From a virus: DNA of 64,000 bases. The notes under the pieces were generated by a model. That model was given only the letters and a program-made list of their open reading frames with translations. It ran no database searches and had not been told where the DNA came from. This document shows, piece after piece, positions 2,973 through 36,495 of the stretch (position 1 is the stretch's first letter; each line of letters begins with the position of its first letter). A program made the position numbers and the translations under genes. The stretch is from IMG/VR virus record IMGVR_UViG_3300020448_000002, positions 1-64,000 of that record; one strand, given 5' to 3'.

Positions 2973-3865
2973 TGTTAGGTAATATAGTTGGCAACATATT
3001 CCAAGCGATAGGACCTGCATTCGATCAGACTCTACAAGAGTATGCTAGTATATTCAATGGTCTTTCATCGTATGTTCCTAACCAACAAGACGCTAGAGAT
3101 AGTTCTTTCCAAGAGTTTATTGCATTCTCTAGGAAGATGTCGAACAATCCTAGTTACACCAACATGTACTCGGTGCATTTCCTTACACCGTCAATGTTTG
3201 GTAGTAAACCAGGTTTCTCTTTAAGTAGTAATGATGAACAATTCTTATTGGATTACTATTGTGATAGTGTAAACCTACCTAGTAAACAGATGGCTACTGG
3301 TCAACTGGTAACACAAGGTTCACCTCATAGATATGTGACTGGAACTAATTTCAGTCAAGTTAGTATGACATTTAAAATGCCAGCTAACTCTAAGACAAGA
3401 ACAATATTTGAACGATGGTTATCCTTTGCAAGAAATGATGCAGATCAATATGTAGATTACTATGATAATTACTGTGCACCTACAGTAAGGATCTTCAAGT
3501 GGGAGAGAGGAGGAGGACAAAACTTTAGTATATGGGGTAACGATGCTTGGAGTGCGAACGTTAATAAACTAAGTTACAATCAAGGATGGCTTGGCACTCC
3601 ACAAAGAAACCGTATTACTGCCATGTGGGAGTTGAGACAAGTTTTTCCATTCAACATAGGTTCAACTCAGTTGAATAACATGGAGTCAAGAATTAATACA
3701 CTGACTGTAGGATTTTATTTTGAACGGTATAGATACTATGTTCCACAATATACTGATTGGGGTGACGCGAATGCACAAATTCCTGGTGACCCTCAACATA
3801 ACCCTGCAAAAGCTGACGCAAGAAACGTAGTTGGCAGAGGAAACTGGATCACATATAACTTTTAG
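2972..3865 (+). CDS. 54: Baseplate tail-tube initiator gp54
   Basis: 297 residues (T4 gp54 is 320). The protein has the tail-tube fold shared with gp19: NMYSVHFLTP, FLLDYYCDSVNLPSKQM, the conserved loop YVTGTNFSQVSMTFKMP, RTIFERWLSF, then WELRQVFPFNIGS before the last strands (TLTVGFYFERYRYY). It completes the baseplate and primes tube polymerisation. Its place next to gp4 and near gp48 fits. gp48 and gp54 are themselves related, so the assignment rests on length and on the other copy already matching gp48. Confidence 0.82.
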   Translation: MLGNIVGNIFQAIGPAFDQTLQEYASIFNGLSSYVPNQQDARDSSFQEFIAFSRKMSNNPSYTNMYSVHFLTPSMFGSKPGFSLSSNDEQFLLDYYCDSVNLPSKQMATGQLVTQGSPHRYVTGTNFSQVSMTFKMPANSKTRTIFERWLSFARNDADQYVDYYDNYCAPTVRIFKWERGGGQNFSIWGNDAWSANVNKLSYNQGWLGTPQRNRITAMWELRQVFPFNIGSTQLNNMESRINTLTVGFYFERYRYYVPQYTDWGDANAQIPGDPQHNPAKADARNVVGRGNWITYNF

Positions 3866-3872
3866 GAACCCT

Positions 3873-3880
3873 CCTAAATA
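3873..3880 (+). promoter_or_regulatory. Candidate late promoter CCTAAATA (gp26)
   Basis: Lies 23 bases before the gp26 ATG. A one-base variant of the late consensus, repeated at the same distance before gp4. Confidence 0.45.
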
Positions 3881-3902
3881 ATTGTACTGAATTGAAATTA
3901 TT

Positions 3903-4613
3903 ATGGCATTACCGACCTTAGTAACACCAAAATTTAAAATGAAACTACCGTCTGACGGTAGAGTGGTAAACTTTAGACCATTCCTTGTTAAAGAAGAGAA
4001 GGTTCTATTGATTGCTACTGAGACTGGAAACCAAGATAGTATTGTAAATGCTATTAAAGATATTATTGGTGCATGCACTGATATTAAAGATGTAGAAGCA
4101 CTACCAACATTTGATATTGAATTTGTATTCTTACAAATTAGAACCAAGTCTGTTGGTGAGAGTGTAGAAGTGGGTGTAACTTGCCCTGACGATGAGGAAA
4201 CACAAGTCGAAGTTAAGATACCTTTAGACACTATTAAAGTGGTTAAAACTAAGGGTCATAACAAAGAAATTAAAATGTCTGATGAGATTTTAATTACTAT
4301 GTCTTATCCAAGTCTTGATACTTTTGTTAAGGCTAACTTCACAGAGAATCAACAAGACGTTGATCAAGTCTTTGACATGGCAGCAAGTTGCGTTGCAACA
4401 ATCACAACTCCAGAAGAGGTACATGATTGTAAAAACTTACCAAAGAAAGAAGTCCTAGAATTCTTAGATCAAATGAGTTCTGCTCAGTTTAAGAAAATTC
4501 AAGACTTTTTTGAGACCATGCCTAAGTTATCTCATAAATTAAAAGTTACAAACCCTAAAACAAAAGTAGTAAGTGACGTGACACTAGAAGGACTAGCATC
4601 TTTTTTCGGATAG
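3903..4613 (+). CDS. 26: Baseplate hub / tail assembly chaperone gp26
   Basis: 236 residues, T4 gp26 family. Seen: LPSDGRVVNFRPFLVKEEKVLL near the start, then TFDIEFVFLQIRTKSVGE, a C..DE beta hairpin and a C-terminal helical part (LEFLDQMSSAQFKKIQDFFETMPKL). In T4 gp26 acts in hub assembly with gp51. Here the last codons (TCT TTT TTC GGA TAG) contain a T TTT TTC slippery heptamer, and the -1 frame opens directly into gp51. The gene stands just upstream of the long tape-measure-like genes, the position of tail assembly chaperones G and GT in lambda-type phages. Confidence 0.88.
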   Translation: MALPTLVTPKFKMKLPSDGRVVNFRPFLVKEEKVLLIATETGNQDSIVNAIKDIIGACTDIKDVEALPTFDIEFVFLQIRTKSVGESVEVGVTCPDDEETQVEVKIPLDTIKVVKTKGHNKEIKMSDEILITMSYPSLDTFVKANFTENQQDVDQVFDMAASCVATITTPEEVHDCKNLPKKEVLEFLDQMSSAQFKKIQDFFETMPKLSHKLKVTNPKTKVVSDVTLEGLASFFG

Positions 4614-4646
4614 CCCTTCTCCATAATAACCTTCGGGCTTATTATG
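4601..4646 (+). promoter_or_regulatory. Programmed -1 frameshift signal: slippery site plus stem-loop
   Basis: T TTT TTC at 4601-4607 is in the correct phase for -1 slippage of the gp26 codons TTT TTC. Fourteen bases downstream CATAATAA-CC (4622-4631), TTCG (4632-4635) and GG-C-TTATTATG (4636-4646) form a 10-pair stem with a UUCG tetraloop and one bulged C. The gp26 stop TAG lies between. After slippage the reading frame continues for 67 codons as gp51. Confidence 0.75.
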
Positions 4647-4810
4647 ATACCAATTTTGCTCTGATACATCATCATAAATGGCATATAGAACACATTGAAA
4701 ACCTTATGCCTTGGGAGAAGGAAATCTATGTGACTATGTTAATCGACTTCCTTAAGGAAGAAGAGAAAAGAATGAAGGATCAACAAGCAGCTCAACAAGC
4801 AAGTGGCTAA
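4607..4810 (+). CDS. 51: gp51-like hub assembly domain, expressed as a -1 frameshift extension of gp26
   Basis: 67 codons in the -1 frame from CGG 4607 to TAA 4808-4810. The product contains RAYYDTNFALIHHHKWHIEH, ENLMPWEKEIYVTMLIDFLK and a Gln/Ala-rich tail, the pattern I associate with cyanophage gp51 (baseplate hub assembly catalyst). The frame opens at a TGA (4574-4576). It has no ATG, GTG or TTG before ATG 4706, which would remove the conserved half. The simplest reading is a gp26-gp51 fusion made by frameshifting. The stop overlaps the GTG of the next gene by 8 bases. Confidence 0.75.
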   Translation, partial: RIALLHNNLRAYYDTNFALIHHHKWHIEHIENLMPWEKEIYVTMLIDFLKEEEKRMKDQQAAQQASG

Positions 4811-7800
4811 CCCAAAAATAAATCCTTACAAATTAGTTAACCCTAGCGGATCAGGAAAGAATACTTTAGCATCTAACGGTCCTAGAACCAACCTGCTTGC
4901 AATTAATCGCATTGGTAAGACTGTTAATAGTATAGGGCTAGTAGTAAAGGATCTTCATACTATATCATTATCATCTATTAAAGTTGATAAGATGAGGGAG
5001 GTCGCTGAACGTCGTAGACTACAGCGTGAAAGAGATCAAAGAAATGAAGACGAGTTTGAAAGACAGAATGCTTTAAAGGGTAAAGGTCTTAAGAAAATTA
5101 AGAACGTAAAGAAACCTAAGAAGAGTCTTGTACAAAGGTTAGTAGATTCTTTGTTCGGAGGATTGCAAGGACTCTTATTGGGTGCTATGCAATTTCTTTC
5201 TAGTCTAGGAACTTTTTTAGTAACGAAAGGGATATTAGAATACATTGGTAATAGAGAGAATATACATAAGACTGCTGTATTCATACAGAAATTAAGTTTT
5301 GTTGTTAAGAAGTTATATGGTTTTGCGAAGGGTAGTGTTAATAAAATAATGGATGGGTTCTCTTCCTTAGTTGGTAAGGATAGCACATTCTTTGGTAGGT
5401 TAAAAGGTTTAGGGACATTATTATTAGGGATAGTAGGACTAGGAGCATTGTTAAATCCATTTGGATTGATGGATTCTATCCTCAGAATGTTGAATCTGGA
5501 TTTTTATAATCCAAATAGAAATGCTCGTAGCAAAGGTCCTAATTCAACTGGAACAAACACGGGAAGATCAGGTCCTACTCCTAAGTGGAAGAAGGTAACT
5601 AATGCTAGTAATTCTGTCGCTAGAAACTTTGGTAAGAATGGAACTAGAGTATATCAAGATGCACTTAAGCAAGGATTATCTGAGTCGGAAGCACTTAAGA
5701 GAGTAAAAAGAGTAGCAAGAAACAATCCATCAGCATTTAGGAAACCCCCTACGACATCAGGTTTAAGTCCTACATCAGCACCTGCAGGAAAGGTATTATC
5801 AAAAGGTTTGAGTAGATCCTTTGGTCGTGGTGCTTTAAAGTTTCTTGGAAAGAATAATGTAAAACTTCTTAGCAAAGCATTTAAAAATACCTTTGGTAGG
5901 ATACCTGTCTTTGGTGCAATATTAACAGGGGTATTCTCAGTATTAAATGGAGATCCTTGGAAAGCAACTCTATTTAAAACAGCAGGTGCTGCTATTGGTG
6001 GTGCACTTGGAACTTTGATCCCTATACCAGGTATAGGATCACTTATTGGTATGATGGGTGGTGAGTATGTTGGTGAGTTATTATATCTTGGATTCAATCC
6101 TGATGTACCAGGTGGAGGATGGAAAGGAGCAGGTAAGAAGTTAAGAGATGATCTTACAGGTCTCTTCAATAACTTTACTAAGATGATGAGTTGGATAAAG
6201 AATGGATGGACAAAATTCTATGCAGGAATACCTAAAGTAAAGATACCAGATTTCCCTAAAGATCCCCCTGATTGGATACCAAAATGGATCCTAGGAAGAA
6301 ATAAAATTTGGGGTGGTGCTAAACTAGCCATAAAGGCAATGATGGGACCTATGTCCATGATGTTAGGTAAGTCTATACCTAATGTCTTTTGGATGTTGAA
6401 CCTAACGGGTAATACATTCCCATTATTCCATAAAGCATTCTTCAAAGGTCAATCATCTAGTGCAAGTGAAACATCTGGTGAAGCAATGAAGGGTGTAGCA
6501 GGTGATGGAGAAGGAGAGACTACTTCATCATCTACAGTAGCAGGAACAGCAACTAACACTCCTCAAGGTAAACCCATACGTAATAAACGTGGAAGAATTA
6601 TAGGATATGATACTGGAGAACCAAAACCAGAACCAGTATTAGTTTCTCCACCTAAGAAGAACGAACGTGGATCAGGTGCAAAGAATAATTTCTGGGATTG
6701 GCAAAGTAATAACTTATCATATGATTATAAACCTTTTGTACCTCAAAAAGAATATAAAGGTGTAGAGACTGACAACGAAAGATATGGTGACACAATGCCA
6801 GAGGGTGCCTTTGGTATTGGATCTAAGAAGACAGATAAAGCAAAGAAGACTAAGAGTTGGTGGAACCCATTCAGTTGGGCAACAGGTGGTAAGTTAATAA
6901 GACAACTACCACGACTAACAACTAAACAGTATTTTATAGGTAAGATATTTAGAGGCATCACAAAGGCTGTTAGTGGTGTGGTTAGTGGAATAGGTAAAGC
7001 AGTCGGTAGTGTTATGAGTTCACCTATCGGTAGTCTTTTAGGAACTGTTGTTCCATTTGTATTCCCTGCTGCTGCACCATTTATAGGTGCTGTTAGAGCT
7101 ATAGGTGCTGCTGCATCTGGTGATATATTTGGTGCAATTACTGGTGGTATTGGTGCTTTAGGTGGTATGTTCCCTGGTACATTCGGTGGTATAGCAGATA
7201 AGTTTGGTAGTTTCATGAGCAATAATCCACTAGGACAAGCACTTGGTGGGTTTATGCAGGGAGGTATTGGTGGAGCATTAGGTGGATTGATGGGTGGTCT
7301 TGGCTCAATATTACCAGAAGGTGTATCAGGAATGCTTAATAAGTTCGGTGGGTTCATGAAAAAGTTCCCAGCCGTAGGTGGGCTGATTGGTATGATACCT
7401 GGCGTTGCTAACGTACCAGGTTTGTCTCAGTTATTTGGTTTAGATTCCTTTGGTGCACATGGTTTTTCACCAATGGGATTGATAGGTAACATCGCAGACA
7501 GTATGGGATTTGGTGGACTGTTTAGAACTTTAACAGGCATGATGGGGACTGGTGGTCCAGGTGGTCTCATGAATGGTTTAAGAGAGATGGCAGCTGAATT
7601 GGGTGTCAAACCAGAAGTTCTAGGTGTTATGTCTGGACAAAGAGGATCGATGACTAGTAGAGGAAAGAATTTATCTAGAGAATATGCTATGCAATCATCT
7701 CTAGAGTTTATTCCTGTTCCTATGTTATTAGAGAAGTTAACAGAGATCCAAACTCCAGTTCCAATACCAAGAATGGTTCCTGTTCCTATGCCACAACCAG

Positions 7801-7811
7801 CTCAAGCATAA
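4803..7811 (+). CDS. Large tail protein, tape-measure candidate 1
   Basis: 1002 residues, GTG start at 4803 overlapping the gp51 stop. The N-terminus (KINPYKLVNP, then a helix rich in Arg, Glu and Gln) is followed by hydrophobic stretches around residues 115-150 and 195-225, more hydrophobic Gly/Ala-rich segments at 400-440 and 730-900, and a C-terminal proline tail (IPVPMLLEKL...PVPMPQPAQA). It follows gp26/gp51, where T4 has its hub genes and other phages have the tape measure. At 1.5 A per residue 1002 residues would span about 150 nm, a plausible cyanomyovirus tail. It shares its N-terminal ~200 residues with the next gene. No direct similarity to T4 gp29 can be claimed from sight. Confidence 0.6.
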   Translation: MANPKINPYKLVNPSGSGKNTLASNGPRTNLLAINRIGKTVNSIGLVVKDLHTISLSSIKVDKMREVAERRRLQRERDQRNEDEFERQNALKGKGLKKIKNVKKPKKSLVQRLVDSLFGGLQGLLLGAMQFLSSLGTFLVTKGILEYIGNRENIHKTAVFIQKLSFVVKKLYGFAKGSVNKIMDGFSSLVGKDSTFFGRLKGLGTLLLGIVGLGALLNPFGLMDSILRMLNLDFYNPNRNARSKGPNSTGTNTGRSGPTPKWKKVTNASNSVARNFGKNGTRVYQDALKQGLSESEALKRVKRVARNNPSAFRKPPTTSGLSPTSAPAGKVLSKGLSRSFGRGALKFLGKNNVKLLSKAFKNTFGRIPVFGAILTGVFSVLNGDPWKATLFKTAGAAIGGALGTLIPIPGIGSLIGMMGGEYVGELLYLGFNPDVPGGGWKGAGKKLRDDLTGLFNNFTKMMSWIKNGWTKFYAGIPKVKIPDFPKDPPDWIPKWILGRNKIWGGAKLAIKAMMGPMSMMLGKSIPNVFWMLNLTGNTFPLFHKAFFKGQSSSASETSGEAMKGVAGDGEGETTSSSTVAGTATNTPQGKPIRNKRGRIIGYDTGEPKPEPVLVSPPKKNERGSGAKNNFWDWQSNNLSYDYKPFVPQKEYKGVETDNERYGDTMPEGAFGIGSKKTDKAKKTKSWWNPFSWATGGKLIRQLPRLTTKQYFIGKIFRGITKAVSGVVSGIGKAVGSVMSSPIGSLLGTVVPFVFPAAAPFIGAVRAIGAAASGDIFGAITGGIGALGGMFPGTFGGIADKFGSFMSNNPLGQALGGFMQGGIGGALGGLMGGLGSILPEGVSGMLNKFGGFMKKFPAVGGLIGMIPGVANVPGLSQLFGLDSFGAHGFSPMGLIGNIADSMGFGGLFRTLTGMMGTGGPGGLMNGLREMAAELGVKPEVLGVMSGQRGSMTSRGKNLSREYAMQSSLEFIPVPMLLEKLTEIQTPVPIPRMVPVPMPQPAQA

Positions 7812-7823: not shown

Positions 7824-10800
7824 ATGGCAATATCTAAAGATACTAAAATAAATGTTTACAAGATGATTTCTCCTAACATTGGGAAGTCAGCTGCAGCTGG
7901 TGCTGCAGATAAAACATCTGCAAATTATCAGATGAAAACTATTCAAGCATTTAATAATCTAGGTGGTGTTCTTAATTCTATCGGTGGTGTTGTTGCTGAT
8001 ATAAAAAAGATAGAATTAAAAAGATTACAAGACGAAAAGAAAAGAATAAAAACTTTTGATCCCAAGTACACTAAGGTAGAGAAACCTAAGTTCGCATCCT
8101 TTGTTAATGATTTTATTGGTAGGAACGCACCTAATTTCTTAGAAGGTTTATTAAAAGTATTCACTGGGTTTATTAAACTTGCAGTCATTAAACCTGCACT
8201 AGAGTGGTTAGCGGATAAGAATAATCAACAGAAGATTAAAAATACTATAGAAACTATCTTCAAGTTCCTAAAATTTGTTACGACATTTATATCGAAACGA
8301 CTGTCGGGACTGATGGACGGGTTGTATGATCTCTTACGGGATGATGCTACATGGTGGGAAAGACTCACGGGATTTGCCAAATCGTTTATACATTTGGGTG
8401 CTCTCTTTGTAGGTCTTAGATGGTTGACTAATCCTGTTAAGTTAATCAAGGATGTTAGAGGTGTTCTAACAATATTTTATAGATCATTAACTAGATTCTC
8501 TAAAGGACTAAGAACTAGAGGAAGATTTCCTGGTGGATGGAAGGGTAAATTATTAACAGGTGCAGTAGTAACAGGTGCTGCAGCATGGGGTATTAATAAG
8601 ACAGTAAATGTTAATGATGAAGACGAGATGTCTTATGGTGGTTTCCGTCAGAAAAAATTACCTGAGTTTGCTACTGGTGGTTGGATCTCTGGTCCTGAAT
8701 CAGGTTATCCAGTCTCTACAAGTCCTGGTCGTGGTAGTCCTGAGTTTATAGGTCATGGAACTGAGTACGTAGCGAAGAAAAATACTGGTGAGAGTTTTAT
8801 TATACCATTCAATAACTTTGCTACAAGAGCAATGCCTGGTTTGACTGAAGCAAACATGATGACTGCTTCACAACTTGGGTTTGATTTACCACGACTTAAC
8901 GATAAACAATTCTTCTTAGGTAAGATGTTTAGTGGTGCCAAGAATCTATTCTCAGGAAAAACTTGGAGTGGTGGTAACAGAGGAACAGGAAGAGATGGAT
9001 CTTTTGGACTAGGAACTTACGGTAAAGGAAGACCAAGTGACGGAGCATCTGCAACAGCAGGTGGTGGTGCCAATGCAGGATGGCAGGGTAGATTGATGCA
9101 AAGTTTACCTCAGATAGGTAGTGCAGTATTTGGTAATAAAGGTGGTGCTATTGGTGGTGCTATCTCAACTATCTTTGGTGGAATGGGTTCTGGTGAAGGT
9201 GGTAAAGCAACTGGTATGGATATCATAAGAGGTATCGGTGGTGTTGCAAGTCAGTTTCTAGAACCAGGTAGTAAGGGAGCAAACATACTTAATACTGTTG
9301 GTGGTCTTGCTAGTACAATGTTCGGAGCAGGAACCGAAGGGATGTCCTTTGGTCAAAGACTCGGACATCTAGGAAAAGATTTCTTAGGTAGATTTGGTAA
9401 TAACATGCTAGGTCAGTTGACTGGCATGGATGGTGCAGGTCTTAACCAAGCACTTGGTAATATATTGGGTGCAACTCAAGGTGGTGGAGGTAAGAGAGGT
9501 GCAGATCAAAAACTAGTAGGTGGTGGACAACAAGCAGTAGTAGAAGCAGGTCGTGGATTCTTGAACCAAGGATACACAGTCTTTAATCATCCTAACTTTA
9601 AAAATAATAGATGGAGAAAGGGACCTCCTAATAAATCAGGATATGATCCTGCAGCAAGACAGAGAAGTGGTAAAGGTGGTCTCTATGATAAAGGATTAGC
9701 ATTTGATGTTGGTTGGTTCGGTAAGGGTAGTAAAGATGCTCAGTTACAGAACGTTGCTAACATGGCATACGGTAACAAGAAAGGATTAAAATTAACTTCT
9801 ATTATTGGTGACATCTGGGGTAAATGGATCTTTGGTGGTACTAAGAAACCACCAGGTTCTTATGGTGTAAGAAATAAAATCCAAATGGGATTCGGTGACA
9901 GTCAAGTAGCAGGTAGTGGTGACATTGGCATGTCTGGAAGTGAGTTAGAAAGAATGAAAAAGGTCATCGCAATAAAGAGTGGTGGTGATCCAGATCAAAT
10001 GGCAGTTACTGCTAGAAGTCTATTCAATCAGGCAAGTATGGGTAGTGGAACTACCATGCAGAGTATGACTGATATACTTGATTCTCTTGGTGTCAATGAG
10101 AACATGACAATCAATCCTGCTGTCCAGAATAAAGCGAACAAAGCTATAATGGCTTCGATGGACGACACTTGGATGAGTAGTATGCTAGGCAAGAAAGGTT
10201 ACTCTGAACCTCAAGCAATGGCATTGATGAACGCTACTGGATTTGGTAAAGGTATTTACTCTGGTAAGTCAGGTGCATCTAGTATAAAATTTGGCGATGC
10301 TGTATTCAATACAGAAGATAATAAGTTCTTCAATACCTTCATGAAGAACAGTGACCTAGGTGTTGCAGATGGTAGTAATCCATTCTTCCCTAGTGGTTTA
10401 GAAACAAATACTAAAAAGAAAAACAAACGTGGTAGTGGTGCAAGGAAGAACCGTTCGGAAACAATGTATAGTCCTTCTGTATCTACTGCAAGTTCTGCTA
10501 ACACAGGTAGTGGTAGTATATTAGGAGGTCCTTCAAATTCTGGTGGACAACAGACAGCTCCTAAAGATACTAAGAGAGAAGAATCATATGCTTTACAGAA
10601 GGTATATAAAGACAGAGCATACTCTAGAGAGCAGATCACAGAGAGAACAAGGAGACTTGTTGCTGAAACTATGGCTGCTGTTGAAGCACACAACGCTTCA
10701 GTAAGAGCAAACGTTGCAGCTGCAGCATCAGCAGTTGAAAAGATGAAGACAGGTGGTGGTGGTTCGTTACCAGGACTTGCAGGTGCTAAGTCAGCATTAA

Positions 10801-10844
10801 ATGCTGCTAATCTTCAAAGTAATTTCAGTATTGCTAAGTTCTAA
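7824..10844 (+). CDS. Large tail protein, tape-measure candidate 2 with possible hydrolase domain
   Basis: 1006 residues, paralogous to its upstream neighbour at the N-terminus: KINVYKMISP aligns with KINPYKLVNP, VLNSIGGVVADIKKIE with TVNSIGLVVKDLHTIS, and both continue with a charged helix and hydrophobic helices. The middle is Gly-rich. At about 9535-9870 there is a compact region (GRGFLNQGYTVFNHPNFKNN, GGLYDKGLAFDVGWFGKGSK) that recalls G.A.D motifs of peptidoglycan peptidases, and at about 9960-10330 a second globular part (GGDPDQMAVTARSLFNQASM). The C-terminus is helical. Likely a tail-lumen or hub protein that may help penetrate the cell wall; the enzyme idea is weak because no full catalytic set is visible. 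Confidence 0.55.
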   Translation: MAISKDTKINVYKMISPNIGKSAAAGAADKTSANYQMKTIQAFNNLGGVLNSIGGVVADIKKIELKRLQDEKKRIKTFDPKYTKVEKPKFASFVNDFIGRNAPNFLEGLLKVFTGFIKLAVIKPALEWLADKNNQQKIKNTIETIFKFLKFVTTFISKRLSGLMDGLYDLLRDDATWWERLTGFAKSFIHLGALFVGLRWLTNPVKLIKDVRGVLTIFYRSLTRFSKGLRTRGRFPGGWKGKLLTGAVVTGAAAWGINKTVNVNDEDEMSYGGFRQKKLPEFATGGWISGPESGYPVSTSPGRGSPEFIGHGTEYVAKKNTGESFIIPFNNFATRAMPGLTEANMMTASQLGFDLPRLNDKQFFLGKMFSGAKNLFSGKTWSGGNRGTGRDGSFGLGTYGKGRPSDGASATAGGGANAGWQGRLMQSLPQIGSAVFGNKGGAIGGAISTIFGGMGSGEGGKATGMDIIRGIGGVASQFLEPGSKGANILNTVGGLASTMFGAGTEGMSFGQRLGHLGKDFLGRFGNNMLGQLTGMDGAGLNQALGNILGATQGGGGKRGADQKLVGGGQQAVVEAGRGFLNQGYTVFNHPNFKNNRWRKGPPNKSGYDPAARQRSGKGGLYDKGLAFDVGWFGKGSKDAQLQNVANMAYGNKKGLKLTSIIGDIWGKWIFGGTKKPPGSYGVRNKIQMGFGDSQVAGSGDIGMSGSELERMKKVIAIKSGGDPDQMAVTARSLFNQASMGSGTTMQSMTDILDSLGVNENMTINPAVQNKANKAIMASMDDTWMSSMLGKKGYSEPQAMALMNATGFGKGIYSGKSGASSIKFGDAVFNTEDNKFFNTFMKNSDLGVADGSNPFFPSGLETNTKKKNKRGSGARKNRSETMYSPSVSTASSANTGSGSILGGPSNSGGQQTAPKDTKREESYALQKVYKDRAYSREQITERTRRLVAETMAAVEAHNASVRANVAAAASAVEKMKTGGGGSLPGLAGAKSALNAANLQSNFSIAKF

Positions 10845-24945: not shown

Positions 24946-25749
24946 ATGAGTACACTAAGAGTCGCTGCTATTAAAGACCTGACAGGAAATACTGGGTTTG
25001 TTTTGTCCTCTTCTACTGTGACGACTAACAACACTTTAGTTGTACCAGGAACTTTACAAATTAATGGATCCATAACTGGATCTACAAATAGTATACTTCC
25101 ATCACACTCAGGGCAAAATGGTAAGATGTTATATACCAATGGGACAAGTCCTTATTGGGATAATCCACCCTCTGCAGATAACATCTCAAGTATGACTGTA
25201 TTTACATCATCAGGAACTTGGAATAGACCTTCAGACGTTAAATATATCAAAGTTCAAGTCATCGGTGGCGGTGGAGCAGGTGGTGGACATGGAGAAGGTG
25301 GAGGAGCAGGTGGATACTCAGAAGAAGTTATAAACGTAGAAAGTATAAGTTCAGTATATTGCACAATATCAGGAGAATCTAACGGAACATATTACAGAGG
25401 TGGAGCAGGAAACGGTGGATCATCTTCATTCGGATCTTACTTATCAGCATCAGGTGGATATGGAGCAAATAGAAACCAACAGCATAATGGTGGTTTAGGA
25501 GGAGTAGGTTCTGGAGGAAACTTAAACATCTATGGTGGAGGAGGAGACTCTCATCATGGACGTGCATCAGTTGGTGGAGCAGGATTCTGGGGTGGAGCAG
25601 TAGCAGGTGGACACCCTCAAGGTGGAAACTTTAGTCATAATCATCAATCTCACTCATCACCTGGCTCAGGTGGTAGTGGAGGTTATTTCAACTCACATAG
25701 AGGGTCTAACGGTAGACCTGGTATGATCGTTATTACACACTTTAAATAA
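24946..25749 (+). CDS. Glycine-rich tail-tip adhesin candidate A, 267 aa
   Basis: N-terminal fibre part (STLRVAAIKDLTGNTGFVLS, LPSHSGQNGKMLYTNG) followed by TVFTSSGTWNRPSDVKYIKV and VQVIGGGGAGGGHGEGGGAG, the start of a glycine-rich domain that occurs in phage receptor-binding proteins. The C-terminal ~150 residues are Gly/Ser/His/Asn-rich (GGHPQGGNFSHNHQSH) and end GRPGMIVITHFK. Polyglycine-II sandwich folds of the T-even gp38 adhesin have this composition. Likely binds host surface receptors. Paralogous to the next gene, which starts directly after its stop. Confidence 0.68.
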   Translation: MSTLRVAAIKDLTGNTGFVLSSSTVTTNNTLVVPGTLQINGSITGSTNSILPSHSGQNGKMLYTNGTSPYWDNPPSADNISSMTVFTSSGTWNRPSDVKYIKVQVIGGGGAGGGHGEGGGAGGYSEEVINVESISSVYCTISGESNGTYYRGGAGNGGSSSFGSYLSASGGYGANRNQQHNGGLGGVGSGGNLNIYGGGGDSHHGRASVGGAGFWGGAVAGGHPQGGNFSHNHQSHSSPGSGGSGGYFNSHRGSNGRPGMIVITHFK

Positions 25750-26583
25750 ATGAGTAGTCTAAAAGTCCTTAACATATATGATGTATCTGGTACATGTGGA
25801 CTTATCAGAAATGGTTCTAACTGGGAAATCAATACAACCAATGGTGGTGATGAAAAACTAACAGTTAACACTCTACAGATAGATGGTACTATTACTGGTA
25901 GCCAAGCTGCAAGATTTTTACCTTCTCAATCTGGTAACAATGGTAAGGTTTTAAAATCTAATGGTTCAACAGGTTACTGGGAAACATTTCTAGGACCTAC
26001 AGGAAACCTAACTAGTATGCAAGTGTTCACCTCTGGTGGCACATGGTCTAGACCATCAGATGTTCGTTATGTTCACGTCCAAGTAGTTGGAGGTGGAGGA
26101 GGTGGCGGTGGTCACGGTGAAGGTGGTGGAGCAGGTGGATACTCTGAAGAGATTATTTACATTGAAAATGTGTCAACAGTATCAGTAAGTGTATCAGGAG
26201 AATCGAATGGAACATATTATCGAGGAGGTGCTGGAAATGGGGGATCCTCATCGTTCGGATCTTATCTCTCAGCTTCTGGTGGTTATGGTGCCAACAGAAA
26301 TCATCAACACAATGGCGGTCTTGGAGGCGTTGGGTCAGGAGGAAACCTAAACATATATGGTGGTGGTGGAGACCAACATCATGATGGTGGATCATCAAAT
26401 GCAAACTCTGGAAGAAGTTTCTGGGGTGGTTGTGTAGCAGGTGGTCATCCTCAAGGTGGTAACTTCTCACATAATCATCAAAGTCATTCACCACCAGGTT
26501 CGGGTGGAAATGGCGGTTATTTCAACGGTCACAGGGGTTCAAATGGAAGACCTGGAATGGTTGTAATAACTCATTATAAATAA
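25750..26583 (+). CDS. Glycine-rich tail-tip adhesin candidate B, 277 aa
   Basis: Paralogue of the preceding gene with no gap between them. The same order holds: fibre N-terminus (MSSLKVLNIYDVSGTCGLIR), QVFTSGGTWSRPSDVRYVHV, a G-run, GGHPQGGNFSHNHQSHSPPG and a GRPGMVVITHYK end. 36 central residues are identical to copy A, while the N-terminal ~90 residues and the segment after GGGGD differ (B has DGGSSNANSGRSFWGG). Variable loops within a constant scaffold would suit receptor-binding diversity. Confidence 0.68.
   Translation: MSSLKVLNIYDVSGTCGLIRNGSNWEINTTNGGDEKLTVNTLQIDGTITGSQAARFLPSQSGNNGKVLKSNGSTGYWETFLGPTGNLTSMQVFTSGGTWSRPSDVRYVHVQVVGGGGGGGGHGEGGGAGGYSEEIIYIENVSTVSVSVSGESNGTYYRGGAGNGGSSSFGSYLSASGGYGANRNHQHNGGLGGVGSGGNLNIYGGGGDQHHDGGSSNANSGRSFWGGCVAGGHPQGGNFSHNHQSHSPPGSGGNGGYFNGHRGSNGRPGMVVITHYK
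26575..26582 (+). promoter_or_regulatory. Late promoter TATAAATA
   Basis: Exact late word at the end of adhesin B, 24 bases before the next ATG. Confidence 0.65.
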
Positions 26584-29582: not shown

Positions 29583-29971
29583 ATGAAAGACCAGAACAGT
29601 ATGACAATGTTCAGAATCCAGAAGGTCCTATAAACCCAAGGAACAATGAACCTTATGCAGATCATAAACCAGATGATTCACCAACTCATTTGGCAGAATT
29701 TAAAATGGAAGGTATTGATGATTTAATCAATAACTTTAATGGTCAGTACAATAAAGCACATGAAGCATGTGAAAAATTAGAAGAGGAATTTAAAGATACT
29801 AAATTAAATCCTTATGGTGTAACACAAATTGATTTTAGTAAGAGACAAGAACTAAAAGATCAAATGCTAAGATTAGAAGGTGCTATTAATGGATTAAAAC
29901 TAGCACAAGACACATTCATACTAGATCAAGTAAAAGTCAGACATCCTGATAGAAAGTATGATGCATTATGA
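29579..29971 (+). CDS. Hypothetical helical protein, 130 aa
   Basis: ATGA overlap with both neighbours. Charged and disordered N-terminus (MNERPEQYDNVQNPEGPINP), then two predicted helices (NKAHEACEKLEEEFKD; RQELKDQMLRLEGAINGLKL) consistent with a coiled-coil hairpin. Possibly a small adaptor for the operon's enzymes. No family recognised. Confidence 0.6.
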   Translation: MNERPEQYDNVQNPEGPINPRNNEPYADHKPDDSPTHLAEFKMEGIDDLINNFNGQYNKAHEACEKLEEEFKDTKLNPYGVTQIDFSKRQELKDQMLRLEGAINGLKLAQDTFILDQVKVRHPDRKYDAL

Positions 29972-30633
29972 TAATCGCTGAAGATTATTCTGGTGAAGGT
30001 TTACATCTATGGCATCCTTATGTTTTTAAGTATGAGTTTGACTTTAGTGAAATATTACCAAAGCTTAGACCAACATACGAAGCAGCATTAAATCACTGGG
30101 CAGCACAAGGAGATCAGACTGAAGTAGAAGCTATACCTAAATCTACCACATCAAGAGTTGGTAGATATGAATATACGTTAGAACCTCATAATCAAGAATG
30201 TATGAAACCATTTCATGATTGGTTGGGTCCTCGTATTAATTGGGTGTGGGAACAATTTGGTTACTTAGGAGCAGAGAGTGAAGTTAGTCAGTCATGGTTC
30301 AATAGACATACTAAGGGAGGACAAACTAAAGAGCATACTCATAATTGTATTGAGTTAGTTGTAGCATCGTACTTACAGAATGATGGAGAAGGTCAAGGTA
30401 ATATAGAAATTAAAGATCCATTAGAATATCATAAGACAGGTTATCCATATGATGCAGAGAAAGAAGTATGGAAAGAAATTAAAGCTCCAACTAATACAGT
30501 TTTAATATTTCCTGGTTGGGTTAATCACAGAAGTCAAGAGAATAAAATAGGTGGTGAAAGGATGGTGATGACATATAATATTAATGCTCGTCTCTTTAAA
30601 TGTGATGTATATGAAAAAAGATTCATTTTATAG
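29968..30633 (+). CDS. 2OG-Fe(II) oxygenase family (no. 3, operon member 1)
   Basis: 221 residues. QTKEHTHNCIELVVASYLQ gives the first His pair, KAPTNTVLIFPGWVNHRSQE the distal His after a FPGW turn, and GGERMVMTYNINARLF the Arg and last strand. This is the H.H...FP.W..H....R pattern of the putative 2OG oxygenase family. ATGA coupling to the previous gene. Its C-terminus overlaps the next ORF. Confidence 0.75.
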   Translation: MIIAEDYSGEGLHLWHPYVFKYEFDFSEILPKLRPTYEAALNHWAAQGDQTEVEAIPKSTTSRVGRYEYTLEPHNQECMKPFHDWLGPRINWVWEQFGYLGAESEVSQSWFNRHTKGGQTKEHTHNCIELVVASYLQNDGEGQGNIEIKDPLEYHKTGYPYDAEKEVWKEIKAPTNTVLIFPGWVNHRSQENKIGGERMVMTYNINARLFKCDVYEKRFIL

Positions 30634-31402
30634 AACTTTACTTATGCATCATGAGTTCTCTGACATGATAAAGGTCAAAGAACCAAGAGAGTGGGAAGTT
30701 AAGTATGTTAAATTAACTGATGATATAGGATATTATATTGCAGATCAACCATTTAAAGATGGTGGATTTGATTTGTATATGGATTTGGCAGCAACATTTC
30801 CTATCATGACTGATACAAATAGAGGTGATTGCAGAGATCCAAATCCCTTTGCAACTATTCACCTACCACATTGGTGTTGTGTAGAAGTGTTTAGATTGAT
30901 GAGAGGATATTTTAGAACATGGTTTGATAAAAAACCAATAGAACAGTTGATGTTAACAGAGTGGGGTAACTTATATTTTAAAGAAGAATCATTCCCTTGG
31001 AATTATTTTAGACTACCTCATGTAGATGGTCCTCAAGGATTAGTATCTAATCTATGGTTTACAACTAACCCTGACTCAGGGACAAAATTATATAAGTATC
31101 ATGGTGATATTATTAAAGGTGATGATAATAAATTATATTATGATTTCATGGTCAATGAAGATCACAAATTATTTAAAGAAGTAAAACATATGTGTACTCA
31201 TATGGAAAGATTAGATGGGTGGAAAAATTTATCAGCAGATGAAGAGAGACACTATGGTTTTGAATGTGTAGGAATAGCACCTTGTAAAAAAGGAACAATG
31301 ACATTATATGATACTGAAGTATCACATACACCTTACATAGAAGATACATGTGACTTTAGATGGTCACACGCTTATCGTGTATCTGAAAGGTATGGGTGGT
31401 AA
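30611..31402 (+). CDS. 2OG-Fe(II) oxygenase-like protein (no. 4, operon member 2)
   Basis: Ends at 31402. I choose ATG 30611 (MKKDSFYRTLLMHHEFSDMI); 30584, 30605 and 30644 are alternatives in the same frame. About 263 residues, larger than its neighbours. NYFRLPHVDGPQGLVSNLWF supplies H.D, KGTMTLYDTEVSHTPYIED the distal His, and FRWSHAYRVSERYGW the Arg. The N-terminal half contains GYYIADQPFKDGGFDLYMDL and is not typical of the smaller family members. Confidence 0.68.
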   Translation: MKKDSFYRTLLMHHEFSDMIKVKEPREWEVKYVKLTDDIGYYIADQPFKDGGFDLYMDLAATFPIMTDTNRGDCRDPNPFATIHLPHWCCVEVFRLMRGYFRTWFDKKPIEQLMLTEWGNLYFKEESFPWNYFRLPHVDGPQGLVSNLWFTTNPDSGTKLYKYHGDIIKGDDNKLYYDFMVNEDHKLFKEVKHMCTHMERLDGWKNLSADEERHYGFECVGIAPCKKGTMTLYDTEVSHTPYIEDTCDFRWSHAYRVSERYGW

Positions 31403-31983
31403 TGGAAGTTAAATTTAAAAAAGATTATTGTTCTGATTTACTTTCATGGAAAGAGTTTGAGACTCTAGTGAATATAAGACCTTTGATGACATCAAGGAGA
31501 GTTAATTTTTTTAATAAAAAACCATATAGATGGGATTGTCCTAGTTGGGCATTGGATGTGAACGCTATACCACCAACAATAGTAAAGGAAGCCTTGTTTG
31601 AATCAGTATGTTATTTTAGGGATATGTCAAGAGCAACCGAGAATATAAATCAGTTTGCAAAAACTCTTGAAGAAGAATATAAATCAGTTGTTGATGCTCA
31701 TGTATATGTTTGTCTTAATTTAAAACCAGATCATCCATTTGGTAAGCATCATGATGTTGATGATAATGTAATTGTTCAATGTGAAGGTGAAACTAATTTT
31801 AAAGTATGGGATACAAACGATAAACAAGTGTTAGATGTTAATCTAACGTCAGGTGATACAATTTGGATACCAAAATTATATCCTCACCTAGCAACATCCC
31901 ATACTAAAAGATTATCTGTTAGTTTTCCTGTAATGGAAGGTAATGACTTATGTAAAGAAGATAGAGAGTGGATTAAATTATGA
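31402..31983 (+). CDS. Cupin/2OG-oxygenase-like protein (no. 5, operon member 3)
   Basis: 193 residues from ATG 31402 (TAATG overlap); a GTG at 31396 would add two residues. HPFGKHHDVDDNVIVQCEGE with TNFKVWDTNDKQVLDVNLTS, GDTIWIPKLYPHLATSHTKR and LSVSFPVMEG look like a JmjC/cupin-type barrel: H.D, G...I.....PH, R. It is more like roxA/JmjC hydroxylases, which act on proteins, than the P4H type. Metal and 2OG residues look complete. Confidence 0.65.
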   Translation: MEVKFKKDYCSDLLSWKEFETLVNIRPLMTSRRVNFFNKKPYRWDCPSWALDVNAIPPTIVKEALFESVCYFRDMSRATENINQFAKTLEEEYKSVVDAHVYVCLNLKPDHPFGKHHDVDDNVIVQCEGETNFKVWDTNDKQVLDVNLTSGDTIWIPKLYPHLATSHTKRLSVSFPVMEGNDLCKEDREWIKL

Positions 31984-32558
31984 AGAATTTTACATTTTAT
32001 AAACAAGAAGATAATCTCAATGATTTTATTTTTGAGTCAACAATAACAGATAAGAATGTATGTAATTATCTCATAGATCAATATCATATGATGGAGCATC
32101 ATGAAGGTAGAGTGACTAACGATCAGGAAAATTATGTCAATACTAATCTCAAGGTGACAGAGCAAAGTTTTGTTGAACCAGATCATGCATCATACCAGAC
32201 AATATATGAGTGTATAGATAAGACAATTAGTGTACTACCATATAGATTAACTATACCTTATGATATAACTTCAACTGAATATTCTATTAGCAGGTATCTA
32301 AAAGGTGAAGGACACTTTGGAACTCATGTTGACACAACATCCAAAATGACTTATAATAGGCTTCTTGCCTTTATATTATATCTTAATGATGTTGAAGAGG
32401 GTGGTGAGACTGAGTTTATGACTCTTAACAGATTAGTAAAACCAGAAACAGGAAAAGTATTATGCTTTCCTTGTAATTTTATGTTTCCTCATAAAGGCAA
32501 TATCCCTTTATCGAATGATAAGTATATTGTCACAGCATTTGTTTATCCAACATGGTAA
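31980..32558 (+). CDS. Prolyl-4-hydroxylase-type 2OG oxygenase (no. 6, operon member 4)
   Basis: 192 residues, a clear P4Hc domain: GHFGTHVDTTSKMTYNRLLA (H.D and following strand), FILYLNDVEEGGETEF (the YLN....GGET.F fingerprint), GKVLCFPCNFMFPHKGN (distal His) and a C-terminal KYIVTAFVYPTW in which Lys takes the 2OG-binding place. Protein or peptidyl hydroxylation is typical for the type. ATGA-coupled to the previous gene. Confidence 0.85.
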   Translation: MKNFTFYKQEDNLNDFIFESTITDKNVCNYLIDQYHMMEHHEGRVTNDQENYVNTNLKVTEQSFVEPDHASYQTIYECIDKTISVLPYRLTIPYDITSTEYSISRYLKGEGHFGTHVDTTSKMTYNRLLAFILYLNDVEEGGETEFMTLNRLVKPETGKVLCFPCNFMFPHKGNIPLSNDKYIVTAFVYPTW

Positions 32559-33127
32559 ATAACGATTACAACCTATATGAAATAGATCCAATTCATTGTG
32601 GTATAGATCACGATAAATTGATTCAATATGTAGATATGTCAAAGGCTAAGTTTGAACATCTATTTGATGATAAAACACATGATACTGGTTTTTATTATCT
32701 CTACAATTTCTTTAGTATAGCTTCATGTAATAAGGATACATATAACTTATATCTTGCTATTGTAAAATGTATAAGAGATTATTTTGAAGTCCATAATATA
32801 TCAAAAGATAGTGTATGGATGCAAATGTGGATGAACATACATGATAAAGATCAAGTGCTTAAATCACATTCACATGACTTTCCTTATCATGGTTATTTCT
32901 CATTAACACCTCAAAATACTGACACAGTATTTCAAGATAAAAAAGATGGAAAAGAACTGTATAGAATAAAGAATGCACCATACAATGTTTATATTGGACC
33001 TGGTGAAAGACATCATTATGTTGATGTATTAGAAGACTATACAGATAAGAGAATTACATTTGGATTTGATATTCAAACTGATGATTTAGTTACTGGTAAC
33101 TTTAGTTTTATACCTATAGCATTATGA
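32552..33127 (+). CDS. 2OG-Fe(II) oxygenase-like protein (no. 7, operon member 5)
   Basis: 191 residues. DQVLKSHSHDFPYHGYFSLT supplies the first His/Asp, NAPYNVYIGPGERHHYVDVL the distal His, and DKRITFGFDIQ the Arg. The core is a shorter double-stranded beta-helix than in the P4H type. Overlaps the previous gene by 7 bases and the next by 4. Confidence 0.7.
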   Translation: MVNNDYNLYEIDPIHCGIDHDKLIQYVDMSKAKFEHLFDDKTHDTGFYYLYNFFSIASCNKDTYNLYLAIVKCIRDYFEVHNISKDSVWMQMWMNIHDKDQVLKSHSHDFPYHGYFSLTPQNTDTVFQDKKDGKELYRIKNAPYNVYIGPGERHHYVDVLEDYTDKRITFGFDIQTDDLVTGNFSFIPIAL

Positions 33128-33705
33128 TTAAATTAGATTTATATTTCCCTACACCAGTATGGTGGACTGATACTGATCTTGATAATGAATATTTGAAAGA
33201 TATAGTATATAATAAAAAATTTGAATTTCCAGAAGGAAGAGAAGTTAGCAACTATGGTGGATGGCAGTCAAATGTATTTCCACCGACTCATGTACCACCA
33301 TTATGTGATGTAGCAGTTCAAATAGCAGATCAAGTTAAAGAAGATATGGGATTAAATCCATATACTGAATTTAATGTAGATAATCTATGGTGTAATGTTA
33401 ATAATCAAGGTAACTCAAATCAAATACATATACATCATGGTTCATTCTTATCTGGTGTATATTATGTTCAAGCTAATGAGAATAGTGGTGATCTTATATT
33501 TTACAAAGATTTTAATAAGCAGTATATGAAAACTACTGATACAGAAATAGTAAAACATACACCATTAACAGGGGATGTAGTAAGATATAAACCTAAAACT
33601 GGTAGGATGTTTGTATTTCCTGGTTGGTTACCACACTCAGTAGATAAGTGTATAGATAATACAGATAGAGTATCTATTGCCTTTAACATATTAATTAAAA
33701 AATGA
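33124..33705 (+). CDS. 2OG-Fe(II) oxygenase family (no. 8, operon member 6)
   Basis: 193 residues with the full putative-2OG family pattern. LYFPTPVWWTD is the usual N-terminal start; NQIHIHHGSFLSGVYYVQAN gives H.H..S.LSGVYY; GDLIFYKDF, GRMFVFPGWLPHSVDKCIDN and DRVSIAFNI give the remaining His and Arg. Closely similar in layout to the copy at 51967. Confidence 0.85.
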   Translation: MIKLDLYFPTPVWWTDTDLDNEYLKDIVYNKKFEFPEGREVSNYGGWQSNVFPPTHVPPLCDVAVQIADQVKEDMGLNPYTEFNVDNLWCNVNNQGNSNQIHIHHGSFLSGVYYVQANENSGDLIFYKDFNKQYMKTTDTEIVKHTPLTGDVVRYKPKTGRMFVFPGWLPHSVDKCIDNTDRVSIAFNILIKK

Positions 33706-34220
33706 TTCAAACTATTGAAAATATTATTCCAGAGTCACAACAAGATTTCCTTTTAGGTAAGGTAACTGACTTAAGTTTTGACTGGCATTTTATGCCTGAT
33801 GTAACTTATGTTGAAGAAGGAGAAGGAATAAACACACCAGGTTTTGCTAACCTATTAGTCAATGGACAGAAGAGATCAGGTCAGGAAGATTTATTCATGT
33901 CGCCACTTATTGAGTACTTACATAGATCAAATCAAAAGTTAGGTGCATTGCATAGAATGAGATTAGGAATGACTTTGAACAATAGCAATGAAGAACATAA
34001 CAATAAACATATTGATTTTAACTTTCCACATCAAGTAGGATTATATTATATGAATGATAGTGATGGTGATACACTTGTTTGGAATGATGATATTGTCACC
34101 AGAGTATCACCTAAGAAAGGAACATTTTTTGTATTTGATGGAGCATTTCCTCATGCTAGTTCATGCCCTAAAGAATATTCAACAAGAATTGTTTTAACAT
34201 ATAATTTTACGACAAGATGA
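33702..34220 (+). CDS. 2OG-Fe(II) oxygenase, P4H-like (no. 9, operon member 7)
   Basis: 172 residues. EEHNNKHIDFNFPHQVGLYY holds H.D, DGDTLVWNDD the following strand, and VSPKKGTFFVFDGAFPHASS the distal His, with STRIVLTYNF giving the Arg. It shares VSPKKG...FDG..FHAS with member 9 of the operon (34816), so the two are likely paralogues. Confidence 0.82.
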   Translation: MIQTIENIIPESQQDFLLGKVTDLSFDWHFMPDVTYVEEGEGINTPGFANLLVNGQKRSGQEDLFMSPLIEYLHRSNQKLGALHRMRLGMTLNNSNEEHNNKHIDFNFPHQVGLYYMNDSDGDTLVWNDDIVTRVSPKKGTFFVFDGAFPHASSCPKEYSTRIVLTYNFTTR

Positions 34221-34819
34221 GACTACCATTAACAGTAGTAGATAACTTTTTTGAGACACCAACACTTGTAAGAGACTTTGCACTACAGCAAGAGTTTTTT
34301 AAAGGTGACAGAGGAAATTGGCCAGGTATTCGCACTAAGTTTATAGAAGACTTAGATGTAGATTTCTTTAATAAATTACATGATAAACTATTAAATCATA
34401 TACCTAGAAATTATAAAGGATTTCAACATTTAGAAGCAACATTTCAATTAATAGATGAGACATATAAAAGAGGATGGGTTCATAATGATGACCCTAAGTG
34501 GAATGTAGCAGGGATTATATATTTAAACAATGATAAACCTAAACAAGATTGTGGAACTACATTTTATGATGATAGAGATACATCAAATGATGGAGATCAC
34601 AGTAAAGAATATTGTGATGATGTAAATGATAATATAGGACAGAATGAAGACGTAAGAGATAAAGTTAATTCAAGATGGGTACCTAGTATGCTTGCAGAAA
34701 ATAGATGGAATCGTTGTGTTATATCTGACTCAACTAGATGGCATAGTGCAGGTAGATTCTTTGGACATAATAAAGAGACATCTCGATTGACTCTAGTATT
34801 CTTTGGGAGGGTAATATGA
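34217..34819 (+). CDS. DUF6445-like 2OG oxygenase fold protein (no. 10, operon member 8)
   Basis: 200 residues. LPLTVVDNFFETPTLVRDFA, then RGNWPGIRTKFIEDLD, GWVHNDDPKWNVAGIIYLNN (H.D), DCGTTFYDD, and RCVISDSTRWHSAGRFFGHN with SRLTLVFFGRV. The W.G.R, H.D, YLN, GT.F and WH...GRFFG order is that of the DUF6445 family, which is a P4H relative. Coupled by ATGA on both sides. Confidence 0.75.
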   Translation: MRLPLTVVDNFFETPTLVRDFALQQEFFKGDRGNWPGIRTKFIEDLDVDFFNKLHDKLLNHIPRNYKGFQHLEATFQLIDETYKRGWVHNDDPKWNVAGIIYLNNDKPKQDCGTTFYDDRDTSNDGDHSKEYCDDVNDNIGQNEDVRDKVNSRWVPSMLAENRWNRCVISDSTRWHSAGRFFGHNKETSRLTLVFFGRVI

Positions 34820-35400
34820 GTGATATTATAGTTGTAGATGATTTCATATCAAAAGATTATGCAGATCACATAGAACAAATAGTTAATGAAAAAGATTTCC
34901 CACTACATTTTAGAAAAGGAATTGTAACCAACGAGGATGAACATGAAGGTAATGTAGATGGCTTCATTCATATGTTATATGAAGTCCAAAAACCTGTATC
35001 ACCTAGATTTCCGTTAATATATCCTATGGTATTAAGTATTACTGAAGCAACTGGTATTAAATGGAATGTATTAGAAAGATTGAGATTTAATTTCATGTTA
35101 GGTAATAGGACATCTAAACTATTACATCATGCACCTCATACTGATAACTATACACCACACTGGTCAGCAATATATTATGTTCATGATTGTGATGGTGATA
35201 CATTCTTTTTCGATCAAAAACTTACTAAATTTACAGAAGAAGAATCATATCAAATAACATACGATAATAACTGGACAATTAAAAAACGTGTATCACCTAA
35301 GAAAGGGAGACTGGTAATGTTTGATGGTGTAAGATTTCATGCTAGTTCATTCACTAAAACTAAACCATTTAGATGTGTACTTAATATGAATTTCTCATGA
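34816..35400 (+). CDS. 2OG-Fe(II) oxygenase, P4H-like (no. 11, operon member 9)
   Basis: 194 residues. KLLHHAPHTDNYTPHWSAIY (H.D), CDGDTFFFDQ, KKRVSPKKGRLVMFDGVRFH with HASS (distal His), and FRCVLNMNF (Arg). Its last 60 residues resemble the product of 33702. ATGA overlaps join it to the genes before and after. Confidence 0.82.
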   Translation: MSDIIVVDDFISKDYADHIEQIVNEKDFPLHFRKGIVTNEDEHEGNVDGFIHMLYEVQKPVSPRFPLIYPMVLSITEATGIKWNVLERLRFNFMLGNRTSKLLHHAPHTDNYTPHWSAIYYVHDCDGDTFFFDQKLTKFTEEESYQITYDNNWTIKKRVSPKKGRLVMFDGVRFHASSFTKTKPFRCVLNMNFS

Positions 35401-35930
35401 TAAACGTAGTTAGACAAGCAATTAGTAAAGATACTTGTGAAGTAATATCTAATAGTATTGAATTCATGAGAGTGATGATGGGCAACCCACCTGACCCTAC
35501 TATCAATAATGCTTTTGGATACTATTCCCCAGTATTCTTAGAAGGCTTAATGTTGTATATGCAACCAGAGATAGAGAAAAAAGTCAGTAAGAAATTACAT
35601 CCAACATACTCTTATGGTAGGATATATGGACATGGATCAGTATTAGAGAAACATACAGATAGACCAAGTGGTGAATATGGTGTCACCTGTTGTTTAGAAA
35701 AACAATGTAATTATCCTATATTTTTTGAAATGGAAGGTGGACACGTCATAGATATAGAATTGGATGTAGGAGATATATGCATTTACAAAGGCATAGACTA
35801 TCCTCATTGGAGAGAACCCTATCAAGGTAATAGACACATTCAAGTATTTCTCATGTATGTTGATAGTAAAGGATTGTACAAGGACTGGAAGTGGGATAAA
35901 AGAGATAGCTTATGCCAACCACCAATCTGA
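35397..35930 (+). CDS. 2OG-Fe(II) oxygenase, P4H-like (no. 12, last of the operon)
   Basis: 177 residues. YSYGRIYGHGSVLEKHTDRP gives a Y.R.Y..GS.L..H.D start, EYGVTCCLE and IFFEMEGGHVIDIELDVGDI the middle strands, GIDYPHWREPYQGNRHIQVF the distal His and Arg. LDVGD..IYKG...PH is a common form in bacterial P4H relatives. It ends the operon; a new promoter starts 11 bases later. Confidence 0.82.
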   Translation: MINVVRQAISKDTCEVISNSIEFMRVMMGNPPDPTINNAFGYYSPVFLEGLMLYMQPEIEKKVSKKLHPTYSYGRIYGHGSVLEKHTDRPSGEYGVTCCLEKQCNYPIFFEMEGGHVIDIELDVGDICIYKGIDYPHWREPYQGNRHIQVFLMYVDSKGLYKDWKWDKRDSLCQPPI

Positions 35931-35940
35931 CCACAGGGTA

Positions 35941-35968
35941 TGGACAATAAGAAAATATGTGCTAGAAT
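35941..35968 (+). promoter_or_regulatory. Sigma70-type promoter with extended -10
   Basis: TGGACA (35941-35946), 16 bases, TAGAAT (35963-35968) preceded by TGC (extended -10). The next ATG is 23 bases downstream. It opens the small-gene region. Confidence 0.55.
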
Positions 35969-35991
35969 AATAGAGTCCATAATATCCGACA

Positions 35992-36261
35992 ATGCCAACA
36001 TTTACACTCACAGCCGTTGACGATGACGGAACGGTGACAACCAAAGAATTTTCATCACCTTTCTTAGCAGAGGTGGTAGAAAAGACTGATGACTTCTTAC
36101 GAGGAGTAGGATTTGTCTATGAAGACCTTAGAGTAATTCATAGTGATGAAGACTACGATACGATAACAAAAGAAGGAATAGTTCGTAGCGAAAGCAAAAA
36201 ACGAAAACCATTCACACCTGATTCATCTGTTTATAAAGATGATATAATCGGTATTGAATAA
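35992..36261 (+). CDS. Hypothetical protein, 89 aa
   Basis: MPTFTLTAVDDDGTVTTKEF then SPFLAEVVEKTDDFLRGVGF, GFVYEDLRVIHSDEDYD. A beta hairpin followed by a helix and strand suggests a small alpha/beta fold. First gene after the oxygenase operon, with its own promoter. No family recognised. Confidence 0.65.
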   Translation: MPTFTLTAVDDDGTVTTKEFSSPFLAEVVEKTDDFLRGVGFVYEDLRVIHSDEDYDTITKEGIVRSESKKRKPFTPDSSVYKDDIIGIE

Positions 36262-36268
36262 TACTGTA

Positions 36269-36296
36269 ATCATGTGTCAGCATGATACTATATAAT
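36269..36296 (+). promoter_or_regulatory. Hairpin and -10 TATAAT between small genes
   Basis: ATCATG (36269-36274) and CATGAT (36281-36286) form a six-pair dyad with a six-base loop, followed by TATAAT at 36291-36296. No -35 match. It may be an operator-promoter or a weak terminator plus promoter. Confidence 0.35.
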
Positions 36297-36327
36297 TTGT
36301 AGTTACTATTTTTTATTAATTTACAAC

Positions 36328-36495
36328 ATGGGTAAAACTTTTAGACAAGGTGGAACTGAAAGAGGGTATAATGTACCTGGTAAATCACTAAGAGACAAAC
36401 GAGCAAAATCAACCAAAAACTATTCCAAAGGGGATTCTTATGACTATGGTAAAAAAACCAAAAAATACGGATACAACGGAGAAGTTGGAAGATGA
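36328..36495 (+). CDS. Small basic, Tyr/Gly/Lys-rich protein, 55 aa
   Basis: MGKTFRQGGTERGYNVPGKS and DSYDYGKKTKKYGYNGEVGR: highly charged, no hydrophobic core, probably disordered or nucleic-acid binding. Overlaps the next gene by 56 bases in another frame. Function unknown. Confidence 0.55.
   Translation: MGKTFRQGGTERGYNVPGKSLRDKRAKSTKNYSKGDSYDYGKKTKKYGYNGEVGR

Follow-up and report, generated by a model that had tools for sequence, protein, structure and literature searches.

We conclude that gp51 of this virus is very probably made not as a protein of its own but as the C-terminal part of a gp26–gp51 fusion, produced by programmed −1 frameshifting at the end of gene 26. gp26 would be the short tail-assembly chaperone (TAC-N) and the 302-aa gp26–gp51 the long one (TAC-NC), a reading to which we give a probability of roughly 0.92. 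The first-pass annotation had proposed the frameshift from the letters alone; it is now strongly supported by comparative sequence, by a natural fusion in T4 gp51 and by a suggested chaperone-like fold of gp26. The stretch of DNA analysed, called the window here, comprises 64,000 nucleotides; among named phages, those closest to it are Prochlorococcus and Synechococcus myoviruses (P-SSM3 gp26 matches the window gp26 at 76%), and the virus is a T4-like cyanophage.

3903–4613, + strand: gene 26, encoding gp26, the putative short tail-assembly chaperone (TAC-N), 236 aa (PF12322, phrog_150, AlphaFold model)
4601–4607, + strand: slippery heptamer T TTT TTC in the phase for a tandem −1 slip (conserved in relatives)
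4601–4810, + strand: gp51 frame (−1), the predicted C-terminal extension of gp26, 67 residues after FF, stop at 4808–4810 (translation, phrog_634, alignment)

The proposed slip site and the frame that it would open

gp26 belongs to the T4 gp26 family, with PF12322 (T4_baseplate) spanning the whole protein (residues 9–235, E = 5.7e-73) and a profile match to phrog_150, baseplate hub (E = 2.9e-80). In the zero frame the gene ends GCA TCT TTT TTC GGA TAG, with the stop at 4611–4613, and the heptamer noticed at first reading is indeed present, in the right phase, at 4601–4607. The −1 frame contains no stop codon between 4577 and the one at 4808–4810; past the slip site it translates as FFRIALLHNNLRAYYDTNFALIHHHKWHIEHIENLMPWEKEIYVTMLIDFLKEEEKRMKDQQAAQQASG and matches phrog_634, baseplate hub assembly catalyst (E = 4.7e-30).

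Relatives of gp26 were gathered from IMG/VR with five queries and from GenBank phages, giving 263 loci with a gp26 match, which were reduced to 108 representatives (<85% nucleotide identity) and 31 clusters (<55% nucleotide identity). An in-phase T TTT TTN lies at most 13 nt from the gp26 stop in 261 of the 263 loci. All six T's are invariant in all 108 representatives, and many nearby synonymous positions vary. The conserved run holds six to eight T's, always in the T TTT TTN phase. Within the window, in-phase T6N heptamers occur six times in 15,910 codons (ORFs of at least 100 aa), and the one at 4601–4607 is the only one at a gene end.

Conservation of this kind could in principle reflect the protein alone: the zero-frame end motif LEGLxxFF is itself conserved, T4 gp26 likewise ends ...GLKEFFELL, and a requirement for Phe-Phe would keep a run of T's in place. 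We consider it exceedingly unlikely that this is the sole reason, given what happens at the wobble positions. The codon that holds the first T varies among AGT, TCT, AAT, GAT and GCT (Ser, Asn, Asp or Ala), yet its third base is always T, compared with 63% T at the wobble position of Ser codons elsewhere in gp26; the first Phe codon at the slip site is always TTT across the 108 representatives, compared with 68% elsewhere in gp26. Where FF occurs elsewhere in gp26 it is mostly written TTC TTT (68 of 118), with TTT TTC in 11 of 118, and none of the 261 loci has TTC TTC or TTC TTT at the slip site together with an intact gp51 frame. Taking the 31 clusters as independent and codon usage elsewhere in gp26 as the expectation, the chance that the wobble T and the first TTT would both be invariant comes to about 4e-11, a value to be read as a guide and not as an exact probability because the sequences share ancestry.

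A second explanation that leaves ribosomal frameshifting out is transcriptional slippage, in which the RNA polymerase would stutter on the T-run and give mixed mRNAs, some of them fusing the two frames. The conservation of six to eight T's would suit it, but polymerase would not need the constant T TTT TTN tandem-tRNA phase, and six U's are a short run for efficient polymerase slippage; we regard this mechanism as very unlikely.

Programmed frameshifting would also account for a frame whose annotated beginning varies widely. As the first-pass annotation held, the gp51 frame has no usable start ahead of its conserved part: its first ATG, GTG or TTG is at 4706, within that part. In a 39-row alignment that begins at the slip site, conservation among 38 gp51 frames sets in with the very first residues (FFRxxLxHxxLxxYYxTNFAL...), across phages of cyanobacteria, Methylophilales, Caulobacter, Stenotrophomonas, Vibrio, Pseudomonas, Cronobacter, Aeromonas and Rhizobium. 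Public records take another view, in which gp51 is a separate small protein, translated past the gp26 stop through reinitiation or internal initiation. The S-PM2, S-SSM7 and S-ShM2 records carry it as a separate CDS directly after gp26, and 47 of the 108 representatives do have an in-frame ATG, mostly 15 nt past the heptamer start and just beyond the gp26 stop, and those lineages could therefore produce free gp51 as well. As a general account, however, a separate gp51 seems to us very unlikely. The window and 43 other representatives have no ATG, GTG or TTG at all ahead of the conserved part, the ATG appears and vanishes among relatives while the heptamer stays, and the invariant T6 would be left unexplained. 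Annotated starts, moreover, range from full length down to stubs of 30–44 aa (in the P-HM2, Vibrio D479 and S-RSM4 records), a wide scatter that is expected if no true start exists.

The two of the 263 loci that depart from the in-phase heptamer are those of Vibrio phage K452 and IME-SM1. Vibrio phage K452 (locus L090, 2180–2405) fits separate genes: it is without the T-run, and its gp51 has its own ATG overlapping the gp26 stop (TAATG). Judged from its sequence, this distant lineage apparently uses another route, possibly an independent switch from frameshifting to separate genes. IME-SM1 (locus L092), with five T's and a shifted frame, was considered as a true exception and rejected. One base has been deleted from it by comparison with its sister phages: in the same group, 14 records from other phages align over one more base, and its sister Moby has T6 and the normal layout (GATTTTTTCGGCTGA). 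The five-T run of IME-SM1 is therefore probably a sequencing error.

Candidate stimulators around the heptamer

Two elements that flank the heptamer were evaluated as candidate stimulators of the slip.

4622–4646, + strand: 10-pair hairpin with a UUCG loop, 14 nt after the heptamer, candidate weak stimulator (folding tests, relatives)
4587–4592, + strand: SD-like GAAGGA, 8 nt upstream of the heptamer, possible stimulator (anti-SD energy)

The hairpin is as first described, with ten pairs, a UUCG loop and a 14-nt spacing (arms 4622–4631 and 4636–4646, one bulged base), but it fails to hold within the window's own clade, being without a counterpart in four loci at about 70–75% protein identity (L042, L051, L018 and L041). 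For this reason its role as a stimulator is uncertain. Hairpins at well-studied −1 sites are spaced by 5–9 nt, and the 14 nt of the window are longer. Measured against dinucleotide shuffles the stem is unexceptional (z = −0.67); with the −1 frame protein held fixed it is stronger than expected (z = −2.25, p about 0.01). The first-pass annotation had pointed to other T4-like cyanophages as the place to look for a conserved slippery site and a covarying stem, and of these the slippery site was found conserved whereas the stem gave no clear covariation signal beyond shuffles: among 20 distinct sequences, both-side pair changes numbered 3 against 2.3 expected, and 76.5% of cells were paired against 74.5% in shuffles. 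Across positions 3800–5000, Rfam returned no family above its gathering score.

A broader signal emerged when all 108 representatives were compared with a synonymous null, in which codons are resampled without changing the −1 frame protein. Over the 45 nt past the slip site, folding is stronger than under this null (mean z = −1.79, 49% at p < 0.05), compared with a mean z of −0.31 for the segment at +48. The excess comes chiefly from cyanophage clades; in the Melnitz-like group it is weak or absent. The hairpins themselves differ by clade, many beginning 4–6 nt after the heptamer and S-PM2-like ones 4–10 nt after it. Some hairpin thus appears to be selected in cyanophages as a group, with no single fixed structure. 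We offer as a speculative, rather improbable extension that the stimulatory hairpin has been re-made clade by clade at about 4–6, 9–10 or 13–15 nt while the heptamer stayed fixed, that clades with the ATG could add free gp51 as a third product, and that the chaperone ratio would in this way be tuned lineage by lineage. Separately, the same representatives and null show a second and weaker folding excess within gp51, in a segment that starts some 96 nt into its frame (mean z = −0.93, with 29% at p < 0.05).

Upstream of the heptamer, an anti-SD energy of −5 kcal/mol or lower is found at the SD-like site in 86% of representatives, compared with 13% of gp26 background windows. We rejected GAAGGA as a selected feature, as the conserved Glu-Gly codons account for most of this energy (null −5.6 versus −6.7). 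It remains a candidate for an alternative or additional stimulator, and the Glu-Gly codons explain its presence equally well.

Fold of gp26 and comparison with known chaperones

The AlphaFold model of gp26 (pLDDT 87) was compared with known structures. With VIA-align against the PDB, the top three of 872 matches were 2OB9 (Z = 7.5), 3FGX (7.2) and 3KLU (7.0), followed by the next at 4.8, and all three cover gp26 residues 1–94. These structures are described as phage tail assembly chaperones (PMC9603447), 2OB9 being that of HK97. Z values below 8 fall in a range where chance arrangements turn up, which makes the fold assignment suggestive; that three chaperones top the list over one shared domain nevertheless supports, despite the modest scores, a TAC-like fold of the gp26 N-terminal part. 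Foldseek with the same model gave nothing significant (E of 1.3 or above, with 2OB9 at rank 9), and the best E value in a PDB sequence search with the gp26 profile was 0.07.

Phage T4 also supports the fusion. T4 gp26 consists of PF12322 alone, and T4 gp51 carries a complete PF12322 domain (residues 1–201, E = 4e-52) followed by the gp51 tail (phrog_634, residues 147–246); the fusion therefore occurs naturally as a single polypeptide. T4 accordingly has the same pair as proposed here, a gp26-domain protein and a gp26-domain/gp51-tail protein, but encodes it in separate genes 26 and 51 on opposite strands with no frameshift, whereas the cyanophage frames overlap. T4 gp51 is essential for assembly and absent from the final particle (PMC3004832), as expected of a chaperone.

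The arrangement also resembles tail assembly chaperones made by −1 frameshifting, lambda gpG/gpGT among them, which have two overlapping frames with a −1 slip close to where the short form ends. Those lie just upstream of the tape measure, and the window's pair would do so too if the candidates that follow it are tape measures. These systems are said to have been treated by Xu, Hendrix and Duda in 2004. The lambda slippery sequence is G GGA AAG, in contrast to T TTT TTC in the window, and the window phage has a contractile tail.

Vladimirov, Gautam and Davidson reportedly found in 2022 that several T4-like groups have retained frameshifting, with T4 using separate genes 26 and 51. A 2016 review had called the G-T frameshift widely conserved "except T4" (PMC5009743). 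Later papers cite Vladimirov et al. 2022 (Virology 566:9–15; PMID 34826709), on TAC genes of T4-like phages, for poly-T −1 frameshift signals in the TAC-N genes of T4-like phages (PMC12846349) and for T4-like phages that have a short gene and a longer fusion gene instead (PMC10885494). To the extent that these citing statements convey it, their TAC-N/TAC-NC reading for T4-like phages is the same as ours; the main idea has therefore appeared before as a prediction and in principle is not new, whereas the clade-by-clade hairpin analysis and the synonymous-site test belong to the present work. The first-pass annotation, which knew of no published demonstration for T4-like phages, was thus right for experiments, as our literature searches found no experimental demonstration of a gp26–gp51 frameshift in these phages, but had missed a bioinformatic proposal that has existed since 2022. 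A further parallel is the TAC locus of phage Adele (Vandenendeviridae/Andersonviridae), which has a conserved poly-T GTTTTT slip motif with an open −1 frame downstream (PMC12846349). Poly-T slip and open −1 frame are as in the window, and the phage family and the motif are different.

Predicted products, downstream genes and significance

Two long genes directly follow the gp51 frame.

4803–7811, + strand: tape-measure candidate 1, 1002 aa, GTG start overlapping the gp51 stop (phrog_790 and related)
7824–10844, + strand: tape-measure candidate 2, 1006 aa (phrog_22508/phrog_1200)

The PHROGs matches of both proteins, each of about 1000 aa, are not labelled tape measure. In Cr30, the tape measure annotated in the record comes after the gp51 region, with one small ORF between. 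The two candidates are distant paralogues with a common N-terminal domain (27% over 245 columns, E = 2e-13), and their near-equal lengths raise the question of whether two tape-measure proteins are used together.

In the mechanism that we infer, which extends to the slip itself, its efficiency, the hairpin and/or SD-like element as its stimulator, and the action as a chaperone, most ribosomes would end at 4611–4613 and release the 236-aa gp26. In a minority, the tRNA-Phe on TTT in the P site and that on TTC in the A site would slip back one base to TTT TTT, and these ribosomes would read the −1 frame to 4808–4810, giving the 302-aa gp26–gp51 fusion. By analogy with lambda gpG/gpGT, many copies of gp26 and few of gp26–gp51 may coat the tape-measure protein encoded downstream; the gp51 domain may help to recruit tube subunits, after which both chaperone forms would leave.

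Three features elsewhere in the window were noted in passing. A 328-aa ORF on the minus strand (473–1459) ends in a long poly-serine tail and is apparently, by position, a gp53-type baseplate wedge protein. Two tandem, closely similar glycine-rich ORFs of 267 and 277 aa (24946–25749 and 25750–26583) apparently arose when a fibre-like gene was recently duplicated. Positions 29968–38154 hold a long series of consecutive ORFs of about 170–270 aa, and by eye several of them resemble the 2OG-Fe(II) oxygenase type.

On the reading presented here, hundreds of genomes of marine T4-like phages have gp51 wrongly annotated, since it is most likely the frameshift tail of gp26 and not a free protein. The reading also links gp26 and gp51, the 'hub' proteins of T4, with tail-assembly chaperones in general, and it offers an easily testable frameshift site for cyanobacterial hosts.
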